From IMG/VR virus record IMGVR_UViG_3300049483_000194, positions 1-22,237 of that record: a stretch of DNA of 22,237 nucleotides; one strand, written 5' to 3'. Positions 1-22,236 of the stretch are shown one piece after another. This DNA is from a virus. The notes beneath the pieces are model-generated. The model had not been told where the DNA came from. It worked only from the letters and a program-made list of their open reading frames with translations, and ran no database searches. How positions within the stretch are numbered: position 1 is the first letter of the stretch; the number at the start of each line of letters is the position of its first letter. The position numbers and the translations under genes were made by a program.

Positions 1-701
1 GCCCAGGCCGTCGCGAAGGCGATCCCCACGGTCCCCGGGCCGAACTTGAGCGGCTCGACCCAGACGCGCGTCACGCCGGCGACCTCGAGGGCCCAGCGTT
101 CGTAGTCCGCGGCCGAGCCGCCGCCCGGGGGATTTCGGACGCGCGAGAGCAGCCGCGCGAGGAGCTGGGCGTCGCTCTCGGGGTCCAGGCCGCCCACGAG
201 TCCGAACGTCTGGACCGTCGCCGGCGAGGCGACCCCGGCGATCGCCGAGACGAGCGTGAGGCGCGTCCCCGCGACCGCGCTCGTCGTGGCCCCGACCGTC
301 GTCGCGTTGACGCGCGCGACGACCCCGCTCGCCCCGATCGTCTTGTCGGCGATCGTCGCGTACAGGATCCCGTCCGTCCGGCGGAGCTGGGTCCCTTTCG
401 GGACGACCGCGCCGAGCGTGCCGGTGAAGAGCACGGGCCCGGACGCGGCGACCCCGGCCTTGCGCTCCAGGCCCCACAGGCTCGCCTGGCGCTCGAGCGC
501 CTCGGGGTCGGCCGTCTCCGGGAAGAGCTGGCGCGAGGTCCACTCGACATAGCCCAGGACCAGGTGGGAGGCGCCGGCGATGACCCTCGAGAGGACGCCG
601 AGCACGGAACGGCGCAGGAGCGGGCCGATCCCGAGCCGCGACGAAATCTCGGCGTCGTTCCGTGCGATCAGCTCGGCCAGGCTCGGGCGTTGGAAGGCCA
701 T
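1..701 (-). CDS. Baseplate assembly protein J (Mu gp47-like), partial
   Basis: This is the first 233 residues of a baseplate J/gp47 family protein; the rest lies beyond the window's left edge. In contractile phages this protein is part of the baseplate wedge, next to the gp46 protein encoded just upstream here. The N-terminus reads MAFQRPSLAELIARND. It is followed by the family-typical stretch LFPETADPEALERQASLWGL (about residues 62-81) and a second typical block, AVVPKGTQLRRTDGILYAT, near residues 99-117. ATG at 701 is chosen because it lies 10 nt after the upstream stop and starts the family's usual N-terminus. The ribosome site is weak (TGAGAACC), but the start context closely resembles those of the tail tube and tape-measure genes. 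The order gp45-gp46-gp47 matches phage Mu. The frame is open to the window edge with no internal stop. Confidence 0.9.
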   Translation of the reverse strand, partial: MAFQRPSLAELIARNDAEISSRLGIGPLLRRSVLGVLSRVIAGASHLVLGYVEWTSRQLFPETADPEALERQASLWGLERKAGVAASGPVLFTGTLGAVVPKGTQLRRTDGILYATIADKTIGASGVVARVNATTVGATTSAVAGTRLTLVSAIAGVASPATVQTFGLVGGLDPESDAQLLARLLSRVRNPPGGGSAADYERWALEVAGVTRVWVEPLKFGPGTVGIAFATAW

Positions 702-711
702 CGTGGGGTTC

Positions 712-2874
712 TCAGCTCTCGACGAAGTCGATCAGGCGCCCGAGCAGGGTCTCGAAGCGGTCGGCGACGTCGGGATGGAGTCCGTCGATCGCCTGGGGGT
801 AGAGATCGTCCTCGGGGCGCTCGTAGTAGCCCCGACGGCCGCTCCCGGGTTGGACCTCGGACGTGATCCGGAAGAAGCGGAACGGGGGCGAGGCGCCCTG
901 GGGGTTCTGGATGATCTTGTCCGTCCCGTCGTTGAAGCTCCGGAGCCACTGATTCGGCGGGATGACCGGGATCGGGGGCGTCCCGCCTGGGTCGCCGTCG
1001 CGGCGCGCGCCGATGGGGGCGAAAATCTCCGCGTAGATGAAGTCCCGCGCCGGCGTCGCCTCGGGGTCCCGCAGAACGGGGAGGAAGCTCCGGCCGTCGA
1101 TCTTGAGCGCGCCGCCGGGGTTCCAGCGGTCCGGGTCGCAGCCGGTGATCTCGAGCACGGTCGAGAAGATGTCGACCGTATGGACCAGGTGGTCGCACGT
1201 CCGGCCGGGCTGGGCGATGACGTCGCTCGAGCCCCAGACCAGGAAGGGGACGCGCTGGCCCTGCTCGAAGATCGTCCGCTTGCTATGCCCTGGATCGTAA
1301 GGGGGAGGGACGGCCTCGGGGACCGTGCCGTTGTCGCCCGAGAGGATGAAGACCGTCCGGGCCAGCTTGGCCGGGTCGATCCGGTCATTGATCCAGCCCA
1401 CGAGCGTGTCGAAGGCCTCCATGTTCGCCCGGTAGACCGCTCGCGTCCGAACCGGGTCCGTCGGAATGAAACCGGGCCCCCCAGCCCCGCCGTTGAGGCT
1501 CTCCATCGTGTGCCGGGTCGCGTCCGAGATCAGGGGGAGGTCGAGACCGGTCGCGCCGACCCCGACGTTGTCGGGGAACGTGAACGGGGGGACCTCGAAC
1601 GGCGCGTGGGGCGGGTTCATGCAGACGACCGCGAAGACCGGCTGCGTGCTCCCGTTGATCCGGAGGATCAGGTCTCGGGCGACCTTGTAGGCGTCCCAGG
1701 CCGCCTTCGGCGTCGTCGTCGTGTCCCAGGCCTTGTAGGGTCCGCCGGCCGGCCAGGTCCCCGCCGCGCCGTAGGTCGTCACGACCGGGACGCCGGCGAA
1801 GGCCGCGGAGATTTCTCGGAAATGGAAGTGCCCGGAGTTCGGCGCTAGAGGGACGTAGCCCGGGTCCCCCGGGTCGTTCGGCTCGGCCTGGCCGTAGGGC
1901 CAATTCTCGAGACTGCTCGCGTTGGGCTGGCATCCGATGTTGCGGCCCCAGCCGTGCTGGACGGGCCAGGTCTCGCGGCCGGCGTCGGAGTAGATGTGCC
2001 CCTTGCCGCCCCAGAATGAGACGTACGTGAAGGCCGCGGCCCCGAGGCTCTGGTCGTCCGTGCCGTCGCGGCCGAGACGAAGCGCGCGAGCGATCATGCC
2101 GGTCTCGAGCGTCGGGAATCCGCCGTACTCGCCCAGGCCGAATCCCGCGGACCCCGCCCCGTCGAGGTTCGCCGCGAGCCCGGTCCGGAACCCGTGCCGG
2201 CCGGTGTGAAGGCAGGCGCGCGTCGGGCCACAAATCGGCGTCGCATAGCCCCGGAGGAACGTCACGCCGCGGCCTTGCATTTCGTGGAGGCGAGGCGTCA
2301 GGGCGTAGGGGTCCGTCGGCGCGTCGAGCTCGCTCCAGTCGAAGAGCTCGGCGCCGCCGTCGTCGAGCAGGAAGACGACGACGTTCTGGTCGGGGATCGT
2401 CGGCGGAGCGGGAACGGCCGAGACGGCCTGGTGAATCCCGACCTTGACGGCCTGGGTCCCCGCCCACAGGTGCGCGAAGAGCTTCGAGGTCCCGCGCTCG
2501 ACGTTCGCCTCGAGGCGCAGGCGGCCGAAGTCGTCGTAGCTCGCCTCGACGGAGACGCGCGAGGCGATCTGGTCCTCGACGAGCCAGGCGAGCGCGTCCT
2601 CGCCGAGCTCGCGCGCGCGCTCGAGCGTGTCCGTGGTCCGCTTCTCGCGCTCGAGCGTCCAGAGCCGCGAGCCGAACCGGTCGCGGACGTTGTCGGCCCA
2701 CCAGCCGCGGATCTCCTCGTGATTGGGGAGAGCTCGTCGCTCCGCGTCGGATCGGCCGTCGGAGAGGATCGAGACGACGAGGGCGGTCGTCAGGCCCTCG
2801 TCGGTGGCGAGGTCGTCCCCGTCGAGGACCAGGTCGGCGCCGTTCGGACCTAGATCGAGTCGCGCGTCGGTCAT
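712..2874 (-). CDS. GP46 baseplate wedge protein fused to a sulfatase
   Basis: This 720-aa protein has two parts. Residues 1 to about 146 look like the Mu GP46 baseplate family, which normally ends near this length. Residues about 160-720 look like a complete alkaline-phosphatase-fold sulfatase. Visible sulfatase features are the metal-binding Asp pair D171-D172, the formylglycine motif C215-G-P-T-R219 followed by T-G-R at 224-226, K291/H293 in GGKGH, H423 in NPPHAPF, D514-N515 in LSGDNG, and K532 with EQGQRVPFLVW. No signal peptide is seen, as expected for a virion protein. The family hydrolyses sulfate esters after Cys is converted to formylglycine by a host or phage enzyme; none is seen here. 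The gene sits between DUF6527 and gp47, exactly where gp46 belongs. The inference is a virion-borne enzyme acting on a sulfated surface glycan. Domain calls are confident; the substrate is unknown. Confidence 0.92.
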   Translation of the reverse strand: MTDARLDLGPNGADLVLDGDDLATDEGLTTALVVSILSDGRSDAERRALPNHEEIRGWWADNVRDRFGSRLWTLEREKRTTDTLERARELGEDALAWLVEDQIASRVSVEASYDDFGRLRLEANVERGTSKLFAHLWAGTQAVKVGIHQAVSAVPAPPTIPDQNVVVFLLDDGGAELFDWSELDAPTDPYALTPRLHEMQGRGVTFLRGYATPICGPTRACLHTGRHGFRTGLAANLDGAGSAGFGLGEYGGFPTLETGMIARALRLGRDGTDDQSLGAAAFTYVSFWGGKGHIYSDAGRETWPVQHGWGRNIGCQPNASSLENWPYGQAEPNDPGDPGYVPLAPNSGHFHFREISAAFAGVPVVTTYGAAGTWPAGGPYKAWDTTTTPKAAWDAYKVARDLILRINGSTQPVFAVVCMNPPHAPFEVPPFTFPDNVGVGATGLDLPLISDATRHTMESLNGGAGGPGFIPTDPVRTRAVYRANMEAFDTLVGWINDRIDPAKLARTVFILSGDNGTVPEAVPPPYDPGHSKRTIFEQGQRVPFLVWGSSDVIAQPGRTCDHLVHTVDIFSTVLEITGCDPDRWNPGGALKIDGRSFLPVLRDPEATPARDFIYAEIFAPIGARRDGDPGGTPPIPVIPPNQWLRSFNDGTDKIIQNPQGASPPFRFFRITSEVQPGSGRRGYYERPEDDLYPQAIDGLHPDVADRFETLLGRLIDFVES

Positions 2875-2913: not shown

Positions 2914-3213
2914 TCAGCGGTACTCGCCCCAGGCTTCCCACGGGACGATCGGCACGGTCCGCCCGGCGAGCTCGTGCGTGCAATCCCCCAGGAACTCGAG
3001 CGCGCCGTCGCGCATGAAGGAATGGCAGACCTTCGGGGTCTGGGCCTCGCCCTCGTTCCATCGGCAGCGGATCGACGGCGAGAGCGTCGGCCGCTCGGTC
3101 GATCCGTTCCACGTCCAGGCGTTCTCGCCGGCGATGGGGACGCGGTGGGGGCCCTGGCAGCCCGAGCAGAAGAACCAGAGCCCGCTCCCGTGGATTTCGA
3201 CGAGGTCGGCCAT
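2914..3213 (-). CDS. DUF6527 family protein
   Basis: This small 99-aa protein matches the pattern I associate with DUF6527, whose function is not known to me. It has C16/C19 (CSGC), a W-T-W-N-G segment near residues 33-37, RPTLSPS (41-47), C50, C63-H64 (CHSF), and C78 with H80 in GDCTHELAG. The conserved Cys/His set suggests a small metal-binding fold; that is inference. ATG at 3213 follows the gp45 stop by 4 nt. The gene interrupts the usual Mu order between gp45 and gp46, so it travels in the baseplate operon but need not be a virion part. The next gene starts 39 nt downstream. Confidence 0.75.
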   Translation of the reverse strand: MADLVEIHGSGLWFFCSGCQGPHRVPIAGENAWTWNGSTERPTLSPSIRCRWNEGEAQTPKVCHSFMRDGALEFLGDCTHELAGRTVPIVPWEAWGEYR

Positions 3214-3217
3214 CGTC

Positions 3218-3790
3218 TCAGGTCATCGGGGGGACTGGCGGCCCGGTCGAGCCCGAGCCGGTCTGGACGCCGGGGTGCGTGTGATCGTTGAAGGTCTGGC
3301 GGATCTCGGCCATCGAACCGGCCGCGTCCGAGACGTCCCCGCCGGCCGTGATCGAGCCGTCGACCGTGAGCGAGCCCGAGAGCCGCAGCTCGGGCGCCTC
3401 GATCTTCACGCCTCCCGGCGCCGTGATCTCGATCGCCCCGTCGGCCTTGAGGAGGATCCGGACGCCGAAGGCGTTGTAGGCCAGCGCCTCGCCCTCCTGG
3501 AGCCCCTGGGGCCGCGTGTTCCGGTCCTCGACCGCGACGACGACGCCGTGGTCGCGCGAGCCGCCGAAGAAGAGCGCGACGACCTCGGAGCCGACCGGCG
3601 GCCGCGACGTCCAGCCGAACTCGCCGAACCGCTCGAGCGGCCCGCGGGTCTCGCCCTTGAGGAGCCCGACCTGGAGCTCCTGGAGCTTGTGGGCGTCGTC
3701 GGAGAGCCGCACGACGCCGCGCGAGGCCAGGAGGGCGACGCGGCGCGCGACGGGCCGCAGGAGCGCGCGGAACGTGTCCAGGGGCCGCAC
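3218..3790 (-). CDS. Baseplate spike protein V (Mu gp45-like)
   Basis: This 190-aa protein belongs to the phage baseplate assembly protein V family, the central spike below the hub that pierces the host envelope. The N-terminal half should be the OB-fold (VGLLKGETRGPLERFGEFGW; VGSEVVALFFGGSRDHGVVVA). The C-terminal half is beta-rich (ADGAIEITAPGGVKIEAPEL) and ends in DHTHPGVQTGSGSTGPP. In related spikes such as P2 gpV, an H-x-H motif binds iron at the tip. A GTG start at 3790 is chosen because it lies 2 nt after the gp44 stop and gives the family length. Longer in-frame extension upstream would run deep into the gp44 gene. Translational coupling to gp44 is likely. Confidence 0.9.
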   Translation of the reverse strand: MRPLDTFRALLRPVARRVALLASRGVVRLSDDAHKLQELQVGLLKGETRGPLERFGEFGWTSRPPVGSEVVALFFGGSRDHGVVVAVEDRNTRPQGLQEGEALAYNAFGVRILLKADGAIEITAPGGVKIEAPELRLSGSLTVDGSITAGGDVSDAAGSMAEIRQTFNDHTHPGVQTGSGSTGPPVPPMT

Positions 3791-3792
3791 GG

Positions 3793-4845
3793 TCAATCCT
3801 CCTCGGGATCGGCCAGGTCGTCCGAGAGGTCGTCCTCGCGCTTCAGCGAGGGCTCGGGCGAGTAGGCGTCGGGGTGCACGAGATCGAGCTCGGTCGTCGT
3901 CCCGCCGCGCGGGTCGAGCGTGAAGAGCACGGACGAGACCAGGAGGACGCGATCGATCCGGAGGGTCGGAGAGCGGAGCCGGGCGAGGACGTTCGGGATC
4001 CAGAGCGGCCCGGCCGCCCCCTGGCGCCAGCCCTGGAGCGTGACCTGCAGCGCGGACCCTCGAGCGCGCCGAACCGCGGCCTCCCACTCCGCCCGCTTCT
4101 GGGCCGTCGCGATGTCGACGCCGGCCTCGGCGAGGATGAGGGTCGTCCGGACCGAGCGGACGGCCTCGTCGAAGGCCTCGCCCTCGGTCGAGGTCTCGTC
4201 GGCGAAGAGGAGGTCCGAGCCCTGGAGCTGGCCCCGCACGACGTAGCGCCGGAACCGGCTCGAGCGGTCGAAGCGGCCGGTACCGGCGAGGAGGTTCTCG
4301 CCCTCGACCAGGTCGACCGCGGCGCGCGTCGTGCCGGGCTTCTCGAGCACGAGGCGCCCGAGCCCGTCCGTCGTCAGGAGAACCCCGCGGAGCCGTGCCG
4401 CGCGCTCCAGGGCCTCATGGACGGTCTCCCCGGGGTGCAAGGCGAACCTCTCGAACTCCGCGCCCGGATCGCCGGCGACGACGACCTGGACGCCGAAGGG
4501 CCGCGCCAGGTCCGAGGCCAGGCCGTCGAGCGCGACGTGCTCGAACTGGGCCGAGAGGTCGACCGGCGAGCAGTCGACGAGCTCGGCCGTGCGATCGCGG
4601 CCGGCGATCGTGACCGAGCGCGAGCGCGCGTCGAACGAAGGCCGGACGACGTCGATCCAGCCGGTCAGGATCGGGAACCCGTCGAGGATCGCCTCGACCG
4701 CGGCGCCCTCGGGAATCGGGAAGTCGCGCCGGTCGGAGACCGTGGCGGAGAAGGCGCCGGCGAAAGCCTCGAGCGAGCGCTCGAGCCGGAACGTCTCCCA
4801 GCCCGTGAGCTTCTGGCCGTCGACGCGCAGGACGAGGTCAGGCAT
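3793..4845 (-). CDS. Baseplate hub protein (Mu gp44/P-like)
   Basis: This 350-aa protein resembles Mu gp44, the hub that connects the tail tube to the spike and is structurally related to T4 gp27. It begins MPDLVLRVDGQKLTGWETF, followed by LERSLEAFAGAFSATVSDR, a typical opening for the family. The C-terminus is acidic (EDDLSDDLADPEED). ATG at 4845 overlaps the end of the circularization-protein gene by 8 nt. An upstream in-frame start at 4920 would add about 25 residues with no family resemblance. The gene is followed within 2 nt by the gp45 spike gene, giving the Mu order N-P-V. Confidence 0.88.
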   Translation of the reverse strand: MPDLVLRVDGQKLTGWETFRLERSLEAFAGAFSATVSDRRDFPIPEGAAVEAILDGFPILTGWIDVVRPSFDARSRSVTIAGRDRTAELVDCSPVDLSAQFEHVALDGLASDLARPFGVQVVVAGDPGAEFERFALHPGETVHEALERAARLRGVLLTTDGLGRLVLEKPGTTRAAVDLVEGENLLAGTGRFDRSSRFRRYVVRGQLQGSDLLFADETSTEGEAFDEAVRSVRTTLILAEAGVDIATAQKRAEWEAAVRRARGSALQVTLQGWRQGAAGPLWIPNVLARLRSPTLRIDRVLLVSSVLFTLDPRGGTTTELDLVHPDAYSPEPSLKREDDLSDDLADPEED

Positions 4846-6022
4846 CGGCCAGGACCTCGAGCGTCTGGCCGCCCACGACGACGAGGGGGTTCCGGATCCG
4901 GTTCCGGGCGACGAGCTCATCCGCGCGCGAGACGTCGTCGAAGAGCTCGTAGGCGATCGCGAGCGCGTTCGTCGTCTCGCCCACGGTGTAGGCCTGGATC
5001 TCGGGGAGCGTGCCAGGCGCGAGCGGGAGCGCGCTCGAGAGGGCCTGGGCGACGGCGCCGAGCGCGACGAAGGTCGCGTCGCCCGCGGTGTCCTGGGCGC
5101 TTGTGATCGCCGCGAGCGCGCGATCGCGCGCGGCCTGGGCCTCCCCGAAACTCGCCCAGTCGACCTCGGCCGAAGAGCGCGCGCCGAGCGCGGCGCCGCT
5201 CTCGCGGAAGATCCGCCCGACCGCGTCCCGGTTGCGGTCGGCGTTCTGGGAGGCGCTCGAGTGCCCGAACGAGCGCGAGGGCTTCACGTCGAGCAGGCCG
5301 AGGAAGGCCTCGATCGCGTACTTCGCCGACCCGATCGTCCCGCGGAGACCGTCGAGGAGCGAGGTCACGTCGCGCGCGAATTGTCCGGGCGTCTGGAGCG
5401 CCGCGATCGCGCCGTTGGCGAGCGTGTCGAGCTTGTCGCGCCAGGCCGAGACCTCGTCGAGCGGCCCGCGCAGGTTGAGCCCGCGGAGGTAGTCGAAGAA
5501 GTCCTGGGCCTGGATCGAGCCGGCCTGGACGAGGATCGCCGGCTCGTCCGTCGGATCCCAGCTCGCCGCGAAGTCGTCCTCGGTGGCCGTGAAGAGCGAA
5601 CCGGTCGCCGCGTCGAGCTCGGCCGGCGCGTCGTCCGTCGCCGCGGGCGAGCTCGCCTCCGAGGCCTCGACGAAGGCGATCAGGAAGCGGGCCATCCGGC
5701 CCTCGCGCGAGCTCTCGCGGACCCTCAGGCTCCGCGCCAGGACGCGCAGGGTCCCGAGGTAGGGGTGGACCAGGTCGCCCGGGCCCTCCTGCTCGTCGAT
5801 CGCCGCGATCAGGCGGTCGCGCTGGTCCTGGTAGTCCTCGCCGAGGACGTAGGCCTCGAGCTCGAAGGCCCGCGCGCGCCGGCCCAGGTCCTCGAAGAAG
5901 GGCGGGGCCTGGCCGGGGTACTCGTGCTCGACGACGTTCCGGGAGTAGGCCCCCTCGGCCGTCTCGACGAAGAACGGGACGCCGCGGAAACTCGCCTCCC
6001 GAAGTCGATCGCGCCAGCCCAT
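4838..6022 (-). CDS. DNA circularization / tail protein N (Mu gpN-like)
   Basis: This 394-aa protein has the DNA circularization N-terminal domain at about residues 1-95: MGWRDRLREASFRGVPFFVE, then YPGQAPPFFEDLGRRAR, and AIDEQEGPGDLVHPYLGTL. In Mu the homologue N is a tail/baseplate protein; the family name came from a reported role in DNA circularization. The remainder is Ala-rich and helical. A C-terminal segment ending GGQTLEVLADA, with VGETTNALAIAYELFDD before it, looks LysM-like. ATG at 6022 lies 9 nt after the tape-measure stop. The leader contains GGGCCCGTAGGCT, which also precedes the GP46-sulfatase start. Confidence 0.88.
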   Translation of the reverse strand: MGWRDRLREASFRGVPFFVETAEGAYSRNVVEHEYPGQAPPFFEDLGRRARAFELEAYVLGEDYQDQRDRLIAAIDEQEGPGDLVHPYLGTLRVLARSLRVRESSREGRMARFLIAFVEASEASSPAATDDAPAELDAATGSLFTATEDDFAASWDPTDEPAILVQAGSIQAQDFFDYLRGLNLRGPLDEVSAWRDKLDTLANGAIAALQTPGQFARDVTSLLDGLRGTIGSAKYAIEAFLGLLDVKPSRSFGHSSASQNADRNRDAVGRIFRESGAALGARSSAEVDWASFGEAQAARDRALAAITSAQDTAGDATFVALGAVAQALSSALPLAPGTLPEIQAYTVGETTNALAIAYELFDDVSRADELVARNRIRNPLVVVGGQTLEVLADA

Positions 6023-6042
6023 GCCGACAGCCTACGGGCCCG
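6020..6042 (-). promoter_or_regulatory. Repeated start leader, copy at the gpN gene
   Basis: This is the second copy of the GGGCCCGTAGGCT leader, here overlapping the tape-measure stop codon (the TAG is inside it). Part of the conserved stretch therefore also codes for the last residues of the tape measure, which makes a purely coding reason for its conservation at the other site unlikely. Confidence 0.5.
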
Positions 6043-7747
6043 AGAGGGCGTAGCCCATCGACAGGTCGACGTCGGTCGGGCCCTTCGCCTCGCTCGAGAC
6101 CCGAGTTCCACGTGGAACATTTTGGAAATCGACCCGGACCGTCGTCTCGCTCCGGGCGCCCTGGGAGGGCCCCGCGAGGGTCTCGGCGACCTTTGGGGCG
6201 ATCGTCGGGCCCGAGCTCGAGCCGCCGCCGCTGGGGATCCCGGCGAACTTGAGGGCCCAGTCGGGGACGAGCGCCTTCAGGTCCTCGAGCTTGCCCACGA
6301 TGAAGCCGTAGACCTTCTCGAAGCCCGTCTGGACGCTCGACCAGAGCCCCGAGAAGAAGTCCGCGACCGCTTGCCAGGAGGTCAGGAGCTTCTCCGAGAG
6401 CGTGAACAAGGCCGAGAAGACCCACTCCGCGGCCGCGCCGATCGCGTAGAGCTGGGTCTCGATATAGGCCATCGCGACCTTGCCGAGGAACTGGAGCGCG
6501 CGCGCCGTGGCCGGGAAGCGGGCCGCCAGGTCGTCCCAGTGCGAGATGACGTAGGCGATCGCGATCCCGACCGCGACGAAGGCCGCCGCGACGGCCGTCA
6601 GGACGAGCACGACCCAGCCGGCCGGCGTCCCGACCAGGGCGGCCGAGAGCGTCGCCAGGGCCGCCACGACGGAGAGCACGGCCGGGGCGAGCGTGACGAC
6701 CAGGACGCCGGCGAGGACGCCGAGCGCGGTCCCCACGGGCCCGAGGAGGTCGTAGAGCTTGCCCAGCACGACGCGCACGGGCTCGGTCTTCTCCCAGAAC
6801 GTCGCGAAGGCGTCGGCCGCGCGCATGATCGCCTTCGGGAGATCGCGCGCGAGGCGCTGGGCGAAGTCACGGACCCGGGGAAGGTTCGAGACGACCCACT
6901 CGCGGAAGGCGTTCGCGAGCTGCTCGACGACCGGGAGCAGCTCGGCGCCGATGACGTTCCGGACCCCGCGGAGCACGGCCGAGACGCGCGTGAGGTTGTC
7001 CATGAAGGCCTCGCCCTTCTGGGCCGCGTCGCGCGAGAGCACGATCCCGAACCGGTGCGCCTCGGCCGCGGCCTGGCGCAAGCCCTCGGCGCCGTCGGAG
7101 AGGAGCGGGATCAGGTCGGCGCCGGCCTTGCCGAAGAGCTCCTGCGCGAGCGCGGCCTTCTTGAGCGGGTCGTCCAGACGTCCGAACTTGTCCGCGATCT
7201 CCTCGAGCAGGCTCCCCGCGTCGCGCAGGTGGCCGTTGCCGTCGAGGACCGAGATCCCCAGCCGGTCGAAGCCCTTCGCGGCCGTCGACGAGCCGCGCGC
7301 GGAGAGCGCCGCGTTGCGCGTGAGCTTGATCAGGGCCGTATCGAGGGCCTCGGTCTCGACGTTCCCGAGCTGGGCCGCGTAGCGGAGCTCCTGGAGCTTC
7401 TCGACGCCGATCCCGATCTTCTGCGCGGCCTTGATCGCGGAGTCGCCGGCCTCGGCGAACCCGTGCACGAGCGCGTAGACCGTCCCGCCCGCGGCCGCGG
7501 CGATCCCGCCGACCAGGAAGGCCGCGCGCTTCGCGGCGCCGGCGAGCTCGCCCAGCGCGTCCCCGACGCCGGCGAAGCCCGCCTGCAGCTTCCCGAACTG
7601 GGCGGCCTCGGCCAGGCCGGAGAACGACGTCGAGAGCTTGGTGAGCGGCGAGGTCGCCTTCTGGATCCCGGCCGCGATCGCGCGCGTCTTCGCGGTCGCG
7701 TTGTCGATCGCCTGGATCGCGACGGAAACGGGGAACGTGACGGCCAT
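6032..7747 (-). CDS. Tail tape measure protein
   Basis: At 571 aa this is a short tape measure, the protein that sets tail length and occupies the tube lumen. The N-terminus MAVTFPVSVAIQAIDNATAK is typical of Mu-type tape measures. Long Ala-rich helices follow, then a strongly hydrophobic region at about residues 345-410 (LGVLAGVLVVTLAPAVL; VVLVLTAVAAAFVAVGIAIA) that may enter the host membrane during DNA delivery. The C-terminal 60 residues are low-complexity and beta-like. Its place immediately after the tail assembly chaperone and before gpN is diagnostic. ATG at 7747 has GGAG 10 nt upstream. The tail is predicted to be short, below about 90 nm on the usual 0.15 nm per residue rule. Confidence 0.92.
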   Translation of the reverse strand: MAVTFPVSVAIQAIDNATAKTRAIAAGIQKATSPLTKLSTSFSGLAEAAQFGKLQAGFAGVGDALGELAGAAKRAAFLVGGIAAAAGGTVYALVHGFAEAGDSAIKAAQKIGIGVEKLQELRYAAQLGNVETEALDTALIKLTRNAALSARGSSTAAKGFDRLGISVLDGNGHLRDAGSLLEEIADKFGRLDDPLKKAALAQELFGKAGADLIPLLSDGAEGLRQAAAEAHRFGIVLSRDAAQKGEAFMDNLTRVSAVLRGVRNVIGAELLPVVEQLANAFREWVVSNLPRVRDFAQRLARDLPKAIMRAADAFATFWEKTEPVRVVLGKLYDLLGPVGTALGVLAGVLVVTLAPAVLSVVAALATLSAALVGTPAGWVVLVLTAVAAAFVAVGIAIAYVISHWDDLAARFPATARALQFLGKVAMAYIETQLYAIGAAAEWVFSALFTLSEKLLTSWQAVADFFSGLWSSVQTGFEKVYGFIVGKLEDLKALVPDWALKFAGIPSGGGSSSGPTIAPKVAETLAGPSQGARSETTVRVDFQNVPRGTRVSSEAKGPTDVDLSMGYALSGP

Positions 7748-8897: not shown

Positions 8898-10733
8898 TCA
8901 GAGAACGAAGGTGAACCGACCGGCCACGACCATGAGCGGGTTCACGAGGTTGGGCGGAATCTGGAAGTTGAGGCGCGTCGGGTCGCTCGTGTCGCGCTCG
9001 ACGAGGAGGTCGGCCTTGAAGCCCTCGACGTCCTCGACGAGGCCCTGGGTCTCCCAGAGCAGCGCGCGCGCGACGAGCTCGCCGCGCATGATGCCCGGCG
9101 TCACGATCGCCTGGCCGGCCGCGAGGCGCGAGGAGTCGTTCGCGAGCTTCGAGCGCGGGTACTTGAGCTTGATCGTCGTCGTCAGGTCGAAGCGCAGGTA
9201 CGAGAGCGTGAAATGGGTCGTCGCGTCGAGGTAGGCCGTGTCCGCGGCCCCGACGGAGTTCGTCCGGTAGCTCGAGACGACGCGCTCGAGCACGACGCGG
9301 CCGCCGTCGTCGACGCGCGTCGTCGAGACGCCGGCGAAGAGGAGCGAGTTCCGCTGGGAGAGCGTCCAGCGGTCCTTCACGAGCGGCGGGACGACGCCGA
9401 TCAGGGGCAGACCGTTCCACGGCCGGGCCGGGTCGATCGCCGCGTAGAACGAGACGACGGCCGCGGCGGCCGCGGCGATCTCGACCGTCCACGTCGGCGA
9501 GCCCTGGGCCGGGATGACGGCCAGGTGGCCGGAGTTCACGACCGACGCGACCGAGATCGCGCCCGAGACGTCGCCCGTCGCGGAGACGAACCCGAAGGCC
9601 TCGTTCGCGCGCAGCGGACCCCAGCGGCTCTCGAGCTCGGCCGCGAAGGCCTGGAGGTTCGTCGAGCCCGCGTAGGGGCTACAAATCACGTTGAACCATT
9701 CGTCGCCGATCGCGGCGAAGGTCGCGGCGAGGTCGATCCCGCCCGCCCCGCCGGCGAACGCCGTGATCGTCAGGCCCACGCCGGCCGGGAGGACCTCGCC
9801 GGCGTTGTGCGAGTGCCGGATGTCGAGGAAGTTCCCGACCAGGCCGAGGTTCCGCGCCGTGAGCGTGATCGTCGCCGAGATCGCCGCGGCCGTGAACGGC
9901 GCGAGCGTGTCGGCGTTGATCGCGGTCGCGATCGAGGCCGCGACGACCGAGGCGGAGTCGCCCGAGGCGACGGCGACCGCGTAGCGGTTCCCGCCGACGT
10001 AGACGTAGACCGTCCCGGCCGCGGTGGCCGGACCGGTGACGGCGATCGTCCCCGACGCGGCCGCGCCGCCGAGCGGGTCGTCGATCGCGATCCCCCAGAC
10101 CTCGGTGAAGGCGTTGTTCGCGAAGAACGCGAGCGCCGCGCGGTGAATCTGGGAACCGGCGCCCCACAGGTTCGAGGCCTCCTGGGCGCTCCCGATCCGG
10201 TAAGCCTGGCCGGTCGTGCCGGAGCCGGTCGCGGTGTAGGCCCCGCCCGTCATCCCCGTGTCCGAGAGGAACGTCGAGACGTTGACCGGTTCGGTGATCG
10301 CGACGTTGCCGACCGTGCCGGCCGCATCGTTCCGGAGGTTGACCGTGTTCCCGCCCGTGACGGTGAGCGCGGTCACGTTGAACGAGGGCGTCGCGTTGAT
10401 CGCGGCGAGCAGCGCGGCGGCCGTCGCGGCGACGTCGACGCCAATCACGACCTGGCGGAGCGTGTTCGTCTGGACGACGCTCGAGTTCGAGTCGAACTCG
10501 AACGTGACCGAGGTCGCGCCGTCGGAAATCACGTACGTGTCCGCGTCGGACGGCTGGCCCCCGAGGACGAGCGTCCCGGTCGCGCGCGTGAGCGTCGCGA
10601 GGCGCTGGCCGATCAGGAGGACCTTGAACGGCTGGATCGCAAGGCCGGCCTGTGCACGGACCGAGGAGAACTCCGCGACGACCGCGGGGGTGCGGAGGTT
10701 GGCGGGAATCGTGTCGAAGGAGATCGTGGCCAT
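8898..10733 (-). CDS. Tail sheath protein (Mu gpL-like) with an inserted module
   Basis: This 611-aa protein is longer than typical Mu-type sheaths (about 490-500 aa). The N-terminus (MATISFDTIPANLRTPAVVA; FKVLLIGQRLA), the segment RIGSAQEASNLWGAGSQIHR (179-198), the block ending TAFAGGAGGIDL (324-335) and the C-terminus (LVNPLMVVAGRFTFVL) fit the sheath family. Its contraction drives the tube into the host. The extra length is mostly residues about 51-168, a Thr/Val/Ala-rich beta domain. This resembles a second segment at 227-328 (GTIAVTGPATAAGTVYVYVG; TLTARNLGLVGN) normal for gpL. ATG at 10733 has GAGG upstream. It is the largest tail structural gene here besides the GP46-sulfatase. Confidence 0.92.
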   Translation of the reverse strand: MATISFDTIPANLRTPAVVAEFSSVRAQAGLAIQPFKVLLIGQRLATLTRATGTLVLGGQPSDADTYVISDGATSVTFEFDSNSSVVQTNTLRQVVIGVDVAATAAALLAAINATPSFNVTALTVTGGNTVNLRNDAAGTVGNVAITEPVNVSTFLSDTGMTGGAYTATGSGTTGQAYRIGSAQEASNLWGAGSQIHRAALAFFANNAFTEVWGIAIDDPLGGAAASGTIAVTGPATAAGTVYVYVGGNRYAVAVASGDSASVVAASIATAINADTLAPFTAAAISATITLTARNLGLVGNFLDIRHSHNAGEVLPAGVGLTITAFAGGAGGIDLAATFAAIGDEWFNVICSPYAGSTNLQAFAAELESRWGPLRANEAFGFVSATGDVSGAISVASVVNSGHLAVIPAQGSPTWTVEIAAAAAAVVSFYAAIDPARPWNGLPLIGVVPPLVKDRWTLSQRNSLLFAGVSTTRVDDGGRVVLERVVSSYRTNSVGAADTAYLDATTHFTLSYLRFDLTTTIKLKYPRSKLANDSSRLAAGQAIVTPGIMRGELVARALLWETQGLVEDVEGFKADLLVERDTSDPTRLNFQIPPNLVNPLMVVAGRFTFVL

Positions 10734-18615: not shown

Positions 18616-19536
18616 TCATCCCAGGGCGCCCGCGGCGACGCGAAGGCCTCGGAGCCGGCGGTACCGGCCGAGGATGTCCTGCAGCGTCGCGAAGCGGATC
18701 CCGGCCTCCCAGAGCGTGCCGCCGGCGACGAGCGGGCGGAGGTTGTCCAGGGCGCCCCAGTCCCCGCCGAGCTTGTCGCGCGTCGCCAGGTCGAAGCCCT
18801 TCGGCCAGACCCCGGCCAGGTCGTCGGGCCGCGCGCCGAGCACGACGGCGCGGCCCTCGAGGCCGAGCGCCGGCGCGTTCGCGACGTTGCCGACGAACGT
18901 CCCGACGTCTGGACCGTTCGGGACCAGGACCGAGTAGCCCGAGGCCCCGGCGCCCGTGTCGCGCTCGAGGATGAGCGAGTTCGCGAGCAGGTGCCCCTCG
19001 CCGGCGCGCCAGCCCGCGAGGCCGATCCCGTAGCCGTGCGGGTCGAGCACGGTCAGGTGGCGGAGCCGGACGCGGCGCGGGGCCAGGAAGCCCGGGCCGC
19101 GGTGCGAGCAGTCCACGGCCTTGTTCCCGACGGGCCCGAGCACGACGACCGAGCGGAGGTCCGCGCCCTGGGGGCTCTCGAGCTGGATCCCGTTGTCGCC
19201 CGCGCGCTGGACGACGACATTGGAGACGCTCGTCTCCTCGCCGTGGCCGATCCAGAGCCCGACCCCCTTCGCGTCGCGGATCCAGACGCGCTCGAGCGAG
19301 ACGCGGCGCGCCTCGTTCCGGACGTTGACGCCGATCTCCCCGCCGACGAGCTCGAGCTGCTCGAGGCTCCCGGTCGTGGCTTCGACGGCCGGGCGATCGG
19401 TGAAGGTCGCGACGAGGCGCGTCCCCTGGCGGTCGCCGCGAAGGCGTCCGGAGAGGACCAGGGGGGCGCGGAGCTCGAAGGTCCCGGGGGGGAGCTGGCC
19501 GGCGCCGGCGGAGAGAACGTCCTGTGCTTGGCTCAT
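18616..19536 (-). CDS. Right-handed beta-helix protein
   Basis: This 306-aa protein has the short repeats of a parallel beta-helix (pectate-lyase-like) fold: LEQLELVGGEIGVNVRNEAR, RVSLERVWIRDAKGVGLWIG, VSNVVVQRAGDNGIQLESPQ, LRHLTVLDPHGYGIGLAGW and VGTFVGNVANAPALGLEGR. There is no signal peptide. In phages the fold occurs in tailspikes, polysaccharide depolymerases and capsid-bound proteins, but no tail-attachment domain is seen. ATG at 19536 is chosen because the N-terminus (MSQAQDVLSAGAGQLPPGTF) matches a beta-helix lead-in, and the longer frame upstream overlaps the preceding gene. A role on the virion or in glycan binding is inference; its place before the terminase genes is unusual for a tailspike. 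Confidence 0.75.
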   Translation of the reverse strand: MSQAQDVLSAGAGQLPPGTFELRAPLVLSGRLRGDRQGTRLVATFTDRPAVEATTGSLEQLELVGGEIGVNVRNEARRVSLERVWIRDAKGVGLWIGHGEETSVSNVVVQRAGDNGIQLESPQGADLRSVVVLGPVGNKAVDCSHRGPGFLAPRRVRLRHLTVLDPHGYGIGLAGWRAGEGHLLANSLILERDTGAGASGYSVLVPNGPDVGTFVGNVANAPALGLEGRAVVLGARPDDLAGVWPKGFDLATRDKLGGDWGALDNLRPLVAGGTLWEAGIRFATLQDILGRYRRLRGLRVAAGALG

Positions 19537-19562
19537 GGGTTCGGGCTTTCGTGGGTTGAGGA

Positions 19563-20054
19563 TCAGGAGCGGCGACGGCGGCCGGTCGATTCCGGGCCCG
19601 CGGCCGGTTCCCAGCTCGCGAGCCACTCGAGCAGCTCGGACGAGCCGACGAGGATCGCGCTCGCAAGCCGGGCCATGAGCTCCGGCTCGACCTTGCCGGC
19701 GCCGGCGACCTCGTCGGGGAAGTAGACCGCGGTCAGCTTGCCAGCCCCGACGGACCATCCGAGCTCGAGGTGCGCGCTCCGCCCGCAAGGGTGCACGAGA
19801 ACGCAGGCGTCCGCCCAGCGCATCCCCTCGAAGTCCGAGAAGAAGCCGGCGGCCGCGACCGGATGCGTCAGGGCGCGCCGGTACTGGTCGGCCGTCCAGC
19901 TCTCCCAGTCCGGATCGAGCTCCTTCCAGCCGAACCCGTGACGGTCGGGGCCTGGGTTGCGGAAGTCATAGACCTCGTGCCCGTGCTCGCGGAGCAGGGC
20001 GACGACGGGGGGCTGGTGGGGGTTCCGCCAGGAGGAGGCGACGTAGATCTTCAC
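19563..20054 (-). CDS. Nucleoside 2-deoxyribosyltransferase-like protein
   Basis: This 163-aa protein fits the nucleoside 2-deoxyribosyltransferase superfamily: start VKIYVASSWRNPHQPPVVAL, then EVYDFRNPGP, then MRWADACVLVHPCGRSAHLE (79-97) with LELGWSVGAGK ending the motif. E97 is in the position of the catalytic Glu. The known family swaps bases on deoxyribose or hydrolyses nucleotides. The GTG start at 20054 overlaps the upstream stop in a GTGA and has AAAGGAA before it. Next to DUF5131 and a DNA methyltransferase, it could act in modified-nucleotide metabolism. The substrate is unknown. It ends in a basic GRRRRS tail. Confidence 0.8.
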   Translation of the reverse strand: MKIYVASSWRNPHQPPVVALLREHGHEVYDFRNPGPDRHGFGWKELDPDWESWTADQYRRALTHPVAAAGFFSDFEGMRWADACVLVHPCGRSAHLELGWSVGAGKLTAVYFPDEVAGAGKVEPELMARLASAILVGSSELLEWLASWEPAAGPESTGRRRRS

Positions 20055-21097
20055 GGGCTGGGTTCCTTTGTAGAGACGCGGGAAGCGGCCGGCAGCTCTC
20101 GCCGGCGAAGGTCGGACGGCCACTCGGACGGATCCTCGCCCTTCCTGGAGCGAAGGCCGTAGGCCTCATGGGCCGGCGCGGGCTCCGCCAGACGGCATTC
20201 GACGTGCTCGGGCCAGGCAGCCGGCCATTCCGAGGCGTCCTGGTCCTCGAACGGCACGGCGCCGAGCTGCTTCACGAAGACGGGGACGTCGGCCGCGTCG
20301 CATTGACGGACGAGGTCGCGAATCCAGGAGACGCGACACGGTCGAGCGCCTGGGCCGCTCTCTCCGCCGACCACGATCCAGTCGAGGCCCGGAGTCCCGA
20401 TCGGGTCGGCCACGAGGTCGAGGGCGATCCCGCGGAGGTAGCTCGTGTCCTCGTCCTGGAGCTCGACGGGCCCGAGAAGCGGCTCGACGGAGAGCCAGCG
20501 CACGGCCGCGGGAGTGTCGAGCAGGATCGGGACGCGCTCGTCGGCCGAGCGCTGGTCCTCGACGCTCGCGCCGATCCAGACGTTCGGAAGGGGTAGGCGC
20601 CGGCCCGCGATCATCGTCGCTCGGCGGTCCGGTCCTCCCCCGAGCCTCCGATTCGCGCGGAGTTCGGCGTCGACGACGGCCTGGATCCGCTCGGACCGAT
20701 CCGCCGTCGTCAGGTAGGCGCGCGCGCGTTCTGGCCGTTTCGTGAGGACGAGGAAGTCGTGCCAGTCCGCCGCGAGCATGACCGCGAAGACGCGATCGAT
20801 CGCCTTGTCCGAGAGCTTCTCGTGGAAGAGGTCGGACATCGAATTGACGAAGATCCGCCGCGGTCGTCGCCATCGGAGCGGCTGGTCGATGCCGTCCCAA
20901 TTGACCGCGAGCTCGCCGGTCCAGCGCGGGCCGCTCGCGCTCGAGCGCACGAGGCCCTCGTAGGCCTGGCCGGGGCCCGCCTGGCGGATCGCCTGGCGCT
21001 CGGCGTAGCAATGCTGGCAGCCGGCGGAGACGCGCGAGCAGCCCCGGACGGGGTTCCAGGTCGCGATCGCCCAAGAGATCAGGGTTCTATCGCCCAT
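20051..21097 (-). CDS. Phage Gp37/Gp68 (DUF5131) family protein
   Basis: This 348-aa protein begins MGDRTLISWAIATWNPVRGC, followed by SRVSAGCQHCYAE. The Cys set C20-x6-C27-x2-C30 is typical of the DUF5131 family, which resembles radical-SAM proteins but with altered Cys spacing. Other family-like blocks are GIDQPLRWRRPRRIFVNSMS, SDLFHEKLS, DWHDFLVLTKRP, NVWIGASVEDQRSADERVPI, WIVVGGESGPGARPC and VFVKQLGA. Its reaction is not established to my knowledge. ATG at 21097 is preferred over 21139 because it has GGAGG upstream and the family N-terminus. It is coupled to the deoxyribosyltransferase gene by a 4-nt overlap. Confidence 0.9.
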   Translation of the reverse strand: MGDRTLISWAIATWNPVRGCSRVSAGCQHCYAERQAIRQAGPGQAYEGLVRSSASGPRWTGELAVNWDGIDQPLRWRRPRRIFVNSMSDLFHEKLSDKAIDRVFAVMLAADWHDFLVLTKRPERARAYLTTADRSERIQAVVDAELRANRRLGGGPDRRATMIAGRRLPLPNVWIGASVEDQRSADERVPILLDTPAAVRWLSVEPLLGPVELQDEDTSYLRGIALDLVADPIGTPGLDWIVVGGESGPGARPCRVSWIRDLVRQCDAADVPVFVKQLGAVPFEDQDASEWPAAWPEHVECRLAEPAPAHEAYGLRSRKGEDPSEWPSDLRRRELPAASRVSTKEPSP

Positions 21098-21317
21098 CGC
21101 GGGCGCCCTCCTGGACGCGCAGCTCGACGAACATCGCATCCCAGGTCGAGACGTGCCGGCCCGTGATCCGCTCGAACGAGCGGGCCTCGAGGTAGCTCGA
21201 GACGACCCAGAACCCGAGGAGCAGGAGGACGGCGCCGACGAAGACGATCGCGACGAGCAGCCGGTAGCCCCGGTCCTGCTCGTGCGCCTCCCGAACGGTA
21301 GGAGGGAGCGATCTCAT
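21087..21317 (-). CDS. Small one-TM protein
   Basis: This 76-aa protein has one clear membrane segment at about residues 20-40 (LLVAIVFVGAVLLLLGFWVV) and a C-terminal RSFERITGRHVSTWDAMFVE, then LRVQEGARDGR. The ITG-x-x-V-S/T-T-W-D/E-A pattern recurs in small hypothetical proteins of phages and prophages; I know of no function. ATG at 21317 overlaps the lipoprotein stop in an ATGA, so the two are translationally coupled. It ends 11 nt inside the next gene. Membrane topology would be N-in, C-out by the charges. Confidence 0.75.
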   Translation of the reverse strand: MRSLPPTVREAHEQDRGYRLLVAIVFVGAVLLLLGFWVVSSYLEARSFERITGRHVSTWDAMFVELRVQEGARDGR

Positions 21318-21816: not shown

Positions 21817-22236
21817 TCAGGTGGCGGCCGGCGTCGCCGGCTCCGGGCTGGGCGGGTCGGCCGCGGCCGCGCGCTTCTTCTTCGGCGTGGAAGACTTCGG
21901 CCCGACGCTCGGGATTCTGCCCAGGCGCTCGCGCGCGACGTGGTCGAAGCCCTGGCCCAGGAGCGCCGCGGCGCCCGAGCTCGCCTCGAGGATCGGCTCG
22001 ACGTTGAGGGCGCCGCGCAGGCGACGCAGGGCTGTGTCGACCTGGAGCGGCTCGACCTCGACGCCGGAGGCCTGGCGCCCGAGCTGGGCCGCGGCGATCA
22101 GGGTCGAGGCCGAGCCGGCGAACGGATCGTAGACCCGAGCCGTCGCGCGGCCGGTCGCCTCGTCGCCCTTGAGGATGTGGGCGAGCAGCTCGACGGGCTT
22201 CTCGGTGTAGTGGTGAAGGTTCCGGGCCCGCTTGAA
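21817..22236 (-). CDS. DNA methyltransferase, C-terminal part
   Basis: The last 139 residues of an N4/N6-type DNA methyltransferase reach the right edge of the window; the N-terminus lies outside. Visible are HHYTEKPVELLAHIL (8-22) and the SAM-binding DPFAGSAS (37-44), followed by TLIAAAQLGRQASGVEVEP. This order, with the DPFxGS motif near the C-terminal end, is typical of beta-class enzymes in which the DPPY-type catalytic motif comes first. The last 30 residues are a Lys/Pro/Ala-rich tail (STPKKKRAAAADPPS). Phage methyltransferases often protect against restriction; here the target is unknown. Confidence 0.85.
   Translation of the reverse strand, partial: FKRARNLHHYTEKPVELLAHILKGDEATGRATARVYDPFAGSASTLIAAAQLGRQASGVEVEPLQVDTALRRLRGALNVEPILEASSGAAALLGQGFDHVARERLGRIPSVGPKSSTPKKKRAAAADPPSPEPATPAAT

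Follow-up and report, generated by a model that had tools for sequence, protein, structure and literature searches.

This locus raises the question of whether a Mu-type phage baseplate protein carries a sulfatase and, if so, what such an enzyme would do on a virion. The window analysed is the whole 22,237-nucleotide stretch of IMG/VR virus record IMGVR_UViG_3300049483_000194; its features, and those of two comparison contigs, are listed in Table 1.

Results

A baseplate wedge gene that runs into a sulfatase

The first-pass annotation had described a single frame in which a GP46-like domain continues into a sulfatase, and this was borne out. The frame comprises 720 codons, for a protein of 78 kDa, with no stop codon between its two halves, and both halves match their Pfam families. 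The GP46 family (PF07409) matched residues 28-127 (E 6.8e-25; 87.4 bits against a curated cut-off of 28.6), the PHROG baseplate wedge profile (phrog_180) matched residues 2-128 (E 6.3e-30), and the Sulfatase family (PF00884) scored 67 bits against a cut-off of 25 (E 2.2e-18). When the fusion was compared with the PDB, the top match was the Mu-type baseplate gp46 9ki1 (E 4.6e-20), followed by a long series of sulfatases beginning with S1_16 9fo1 (E 5e-13).

The gene order is gp43-gp44-gp45-DUF6527-gp46::sulfatase-gp47, all on the minus strand and Mu-type. The fusion shares with Mu gp46 the domain, its length of about 145 residues and the gp45-gp46-gp47 order, whereas Mu gp46 ends at that length and the fusion continues for a further 574 residues. 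The DUF6527 gene interposed between gp45 and gp46 is absent from the Mu operon. Ordinary gp46 proteins terminate in the alignment roughly where the linker of the fusion starts. Judged from these matches, a complete S1 sulfatase is joined by a short linker to the natural C-terminus of gp46.

Table 1. Features of the analysed contig, and two sulfatase genes of AT-rich phage contigs
Feature	Contig	Position	Strand	Basis or remark
gp47 (baseplate J / BW2), truncated by contig end	window	3..701	minus	PF04865, E 6.2e-47
gp46::sulfatase fusion gene	window	712..2874	minus	720 aa; ATG start; stop at 712-714
S1-type (formylglycine) sulfatase domain, residues 163-720	window	715..2388	minus	Pfam; structure model and Foldseek; catalytic table
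CGPTR, C-x-P-x-R formylglycine maturation motif, Cys215-Arg219	window	2218..2232	minus	sequence
Pro/Ala-rich linker, residues 147-162 (16 residues)	window	2389..2436	minus	
Mu gp46 / BW1 baseplate wedge domain, residues 1-146	window	2437..2874	minus	PF07409; phrog_180; PDB 9ki1; alignment
DUF6527 small protein, between the gp45 and gp46 genes	window	2914..3213	minus	PF20137, E 7.1e-13
gp45 baseplate spike	window	3218..3795	minus	PF06890, E 5.1e-24, and Apex motif; frame open up to 4087, real start ~3795 an estimate
gp44 baseplate hub	window	3793..4920	minus	phrog_177, E 1.6e-102
gp43 DNA circularisation / tube initiator	window	4838..6022	minus	PF07157, E 3.2e-30
DUF5131 protein	window	20051-21139	minus	E 4.9e-77
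AT-rich phage giant sulfatase protein	L210	8567-13828	minus	
AT-rich phage giant sulfatase protein	L217	114-5315	minus	

A gene represented by one instance on one metagenome contig could owe its form to an assembly or sequencing artefact. Such an origin is very improbable here, since correct same-strand neighbours lie on either side, gp47 starts 10 bases past the stop of the fusion, and GC and codon use are even across the region. The sulfatase part has a GC3 of 0.915, compared with 0.93-0.97 in the other late genes, and its codon usage correlates with theirs at 0.974, which shows that it is coding sequence belonging to this genome. The gp46::sulfatase fusion is confirmed as real and not a product of chance. 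No ATG, GTG or TTG codon occurs in residues 120-198; a sulfatase containing the D171-D172 pair is therefore producible only as the fusion.

Three other genes of the window were recorded. The tail sheath (8898-10733, minus) has an additional N-terminal domain at about residues 47-165, and six other viral contigs (L012-L017) match the sheath only over about that range; this pattern would fit a mobile decorating domain. A protein beside the terminase genes (18616-19788, minus) shows beta-helix-like repeats by eye and had no matches in Pfam, PHROGs, NCBIfam or the PDB; this may be a second virion protein that acts on surfaces. A fragment resembling a DNA methyltransferase (21817-22236, minus; DPFAGSAST motif) is truncated by the contig end.

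Occurrence of the fusion

The search for other GP46-sulfatase fusions returned none. The sulfatase extension was confined to this fusion among about 80 gp46 frames from viral contigs and phage records, and a sulfatase-sized C-terminal extension was found in none of the 29 prophage gp46 above the cut-off, drawn from sampled genomes of Alphaproteobacteria (289), Gammaproteobacteria (369) and Planctomycetota (392). With the full-length fusion as query, the viral contigs yielded no relatives and the phage isolate records only gp46 matches. The sulfatase half alone gave weak matches to unannotated gut contigs among the phage records, one of which (L008) is probably bacterial DNA because it holds a run of secreted sulfatases. 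The exact fusion is found on one metagenome contig only, and a near relative for a selection test is lacking. A long gp46 frame of 398 aa (G446/L181) proved to be an upstream open frame and was ruled out as a fusion.

Two gp46 proteins carry additions of another kind. A prophage-type gp46 of 428 aa in a gammaproteobacterial genome (L183, 1057-2340, plus) has ~280 residues in its N-terminal arm, ahead of the GP46 domain proper and possibly jelly-roll-like, and a viral gp46 (L033, 667-1347, plus) has a partial Ig-like C-terminal extension (Big_6, E 2.8e-5, under the curated cut-off). These insertions indicate that gp46 accepts additional modules.

Active site and predicted fold

The residues named in the first-pass annotation (C215-G-P-T-R219, D171-D172, K291/H293, H423, D514-N515 and K532) were all located at the numbers it gave. 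The ten catalytic residues of an S1 sulfatase and the C-x-P-x-R motif are complete in the fusion, so that the formylglycine motif is intact. The eleven positions checked (D171, D172, C215, P217, R219, K291, H293, H423, D514, N515 and K532) were identical in 14 of 14 sequences, namely the fusion and 13 relatives from phages and cells. The catalytic residues are the same in the fusion, in its closest phage relative and in the large sulfatase proteins of AT-rich phages (both described below), although overall identity is low, which argues for selection for catalysis.

An AlphaFold model of the sulfatase half was built from an alignment with 23 relatives (pTM 0.84, mean pLDDT 73). The predicted structure of the full-length fusion was poor (pTM 0.48) and was not used. 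The top Foldseek matches of the sulfatase-half model were all S1-type sulfatases, in agreement with the fold that had been proposed; the best was the carrageenan sulfatase PsS1_19B (E 2.5e-20, TM 0.68 by target length, 18% identity), followed by mucin, chondroitin and arylsulfatases. Among predicted viral structures, Foldseek returned no phage proteins, and good matches came only from giant eukaryotic viruses. The fusion resembles solved S1 sulfatases (PsS1_19B, 6psm/6prm; S1_16, 9fo1) in predicted fold, active-site residues and C-x-P-x-R motif, whereas it differs from them in its 18% identity, its lack of an apparent signal peptide and its attachment to a phage baseplate protein.

At 18% identity to solved structures, the substrate of the sulfatase is not readable. 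This leaves room for a hydrolase of the alkaline phosphatase superfamily with another specificity, acting on phosphonate monoesters or phosphodiesters, and the PehA phosphoric/sulfuric ester hydrolase model does match, weakly and far under its cut-off (E 2.3e-9). The formylglycine motif, the S1-typical residue set and the carbohydrate sulfatases that head the structural matches make this specificity quite improbable.

Maturation of Cys215

FGE (PF03781) and Radical_SAM matches were absent from the 22-kb contig, so that maturation would fall to the host or to a gene off the fragment. The DUF5131 protein, a conceivable anSME-like maturase, was set aside because it lacks a Radical_SAM family match. 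In Chromohalobacter phage YPCBV-1 (L002), which has a Mu-type baseplate, a gene annotated as SUMF1/EgtB/PvdO-family (5668-6321, plus) lies right behind the baseplate genes; its product is probably a lectin-fold receptor binder, though the family includes formylglycine-generating enzymes.

The absence of a maturase from the contig would suit a domain that is virion-borne but serves mainly as a receptor module binding sulfated glycan, with weak or absent catalysis and Cys215 left unconverted in the host, and the two other gp46 additions (L183, L033) likewise look non-enzymatic. If binding were the main function, some loss of the active site would be expected, but the catalytic residues and the C-x-P-x-R motif are retained in all phage relatives compared. 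We consider such a binding role unlikely and favor an active enzyme.

Sulfatases beside baseplate and tail genes of other phages

The closest relative of the sulfatase half is a stand-alone, phrog_19870-like sulfatase on a 58-kb siphovirus-type contig (L104, IMGVR_UViG_3300037465_000050) that encodes a tape measure, a lambda J-type central fibre, a portal and a terminase. It is about 40% identical to the fusion over the full domain (MAFFT; 36% by tblastn) and shares the ICGPTRA motif, but it has only a short N-terminal extension and is not fused to gp46; no GP46 was found in the L104 record.

A strict scan for PICGPTRA recovered one relative and six chance matches, and an alignment of five sulfatases was not specific enough for scanning and was dropped. 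The pattern C-x-P-T-R-A-x-phi-x-T-G located 60 loci in viral contigs, about 31 frames of which were sulfatases by our own profile. Many of these were AT-rich (GC 0.37-0.43), as whole proteins or fragments, and wherever the N-terminus was present the domain came after 200-970 residues of other sequence. Uncultured AT-rich phages contribute proteins of 800-1,750 aa with the same active site (L210, L217, L194, L195, L232, L235, L216, L202 and others). When two of these giants (L210 and L202) were compared with 50,697 phage records, no matches were obtained. Viral sulfatases without a large structural part also occur (e.g., L219 and L236).

A gp25-like baseplate wedge gene lies immediately downstream of the sulfatase gene in L210, L194, L195, L232 and L235; these five loci count as four independent sequences, because the sulfatase domains of L194 and L232 are identical. 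A gp6-like wedge gene came next after the gp25-like gene in all four loci checked (L210, L194, L195 and L235; L232 was left out). In T4-type baseplates, gp25 and gp6 correspond to gp46 and gp47. The giants share with the fusion an identical active site and adjoining wedge genes (gp25/gp6-type), but their sulfatase is on a separate protein, not on gp25 or gp46, and belongs to a distant sulfatase branch. The sulfatases in baseplate regions of other phage groups probably serve the same role as the one proposed for the fusion.

Our literature search found no description of a phage tail or baseplate sulfatase. Mentions of "FGE-sulfatase" in the phage papers examined referred to formylglycine-generating-enzyme-like domains and were ruled out as sulfatases. 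The parts are known; their combination and the link between baseplate and sulfatase are undescribed in the literature searched. A baseplate-associated phage sulfatase is nevertheless not confined to this contig: sulfatases adjoin wedge genes in uncultured AT-rich phages, and a related one occurs in a lambda-type siphovirus.

Descent of the sulfatase domain

A maximum-likelihood tree was built from 83 sulfatase domains, sampled by the motif and by the fusion itself, with an arbitrary root. The fusion and the L104 sulfatase are sisters (support 100) inside a set of 29 rows (support 98) made up of 24 viral and 5 planctomycete-type rows; four further viral rows fall among cellular enzymes. Given this sampling, some long branches and the arbitrary root, the "largely viral branch" should be taken as no more than a lead. 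Among cellular sequences, secreted enzymes of the planctomycete type come closest; L125, the nearest one examined, carries what looks like a signal peptide and lies in a non-phage neighbourhood. Read by eye, the phage forms have no apparent signal peptide, in contrast to L125, which makes tail assembly a plausible export route.

Secreted cellular kin, together with viral sulfatases such as L219 and L236, would also fit an enzyme that acts late or elsewhere, in the escape of progeny from a sulfated matrix or lysed-cell debris, or a sulfate-scavenging gene that was fused by accident. An in-frame fusion without an internal start, however, binds the enzyme to the virion, and the location beside baseplate genes is repeated in other phages. 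We doubt that the sulfatase has such a late or metabolic role, and we prefer a function during adsorption.

Discussion

The reading that we find probable, based on sequence and on analogy with Mu, is a virion-borne desulfating enzyme, six per baseplate, matured by the host and acting on a sulfated surface glycan during adsorption. We infer the presence of the sulfatase in virions from its fusion to a structural protein without an internal start. The peripheral baseplate of Mu contains six copies of gp46 (BW1), the protein that initiates the sheath (PMC11915804). By this analogy the fusion would likewise be present in six copies; of the "six or more" first suggested, the number six is retained and "or more" is not. 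Cys215 would be converted to formylglycine in the host cytoplasm ahead of assembly, and the fusion protein would then assemble around the baseplate, giving six sulfatases per virion. As the tail adsorbs and before it contracts, these would strip sulfate esters from the surface glycan or the surrounding matrix, and desulfation would expose a receptor or loosen the layer, giving the tail access to the envelope. Because gp46 lies near the tube and the first sheath ring, a contact known for Mu only (PMC11915804), the room for six 60-kDa sulfatase domains is in doubt.

A broader reading is that a largely viral S1 branch has been attached repeatedly to the baseplates or tails of unrelated tailed phages, as the Mu-type gp46 fusion, in the giants beside T4-type wedge genes and in the lambda-type siphovirus, and that desulfation is a general entry step. 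We put this reading forward tentatively, at slightly less than even chances. If true, the step would have been overlooked because the phages concerned are uncultured.

The tailspike depolymerases and esterases known from virions cleave glycosidic bonds or deacetylate glycans. To our knowledge, none of these virion-associated enzymes removes sulfate and none is located on a baseplate wedge. The role proposed for the fusion resembles theirs in that a host surface glycan would be modified during adsorption, and a desulfating baseplate, if true, would be a new chemistry in phage entry. It would imply a sulfated glycan on the host, and virion activity would depend on a formylglycine-making enzyme of the host (FGE or anSME), with the prediction that virions from hosts lacking a maturase would carry an inactive sulfatase. 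It would also provide a phage-derived tool for work on sulfated polysaccharides. The data suggest that some phages may remove sulfate from host coats on landing.
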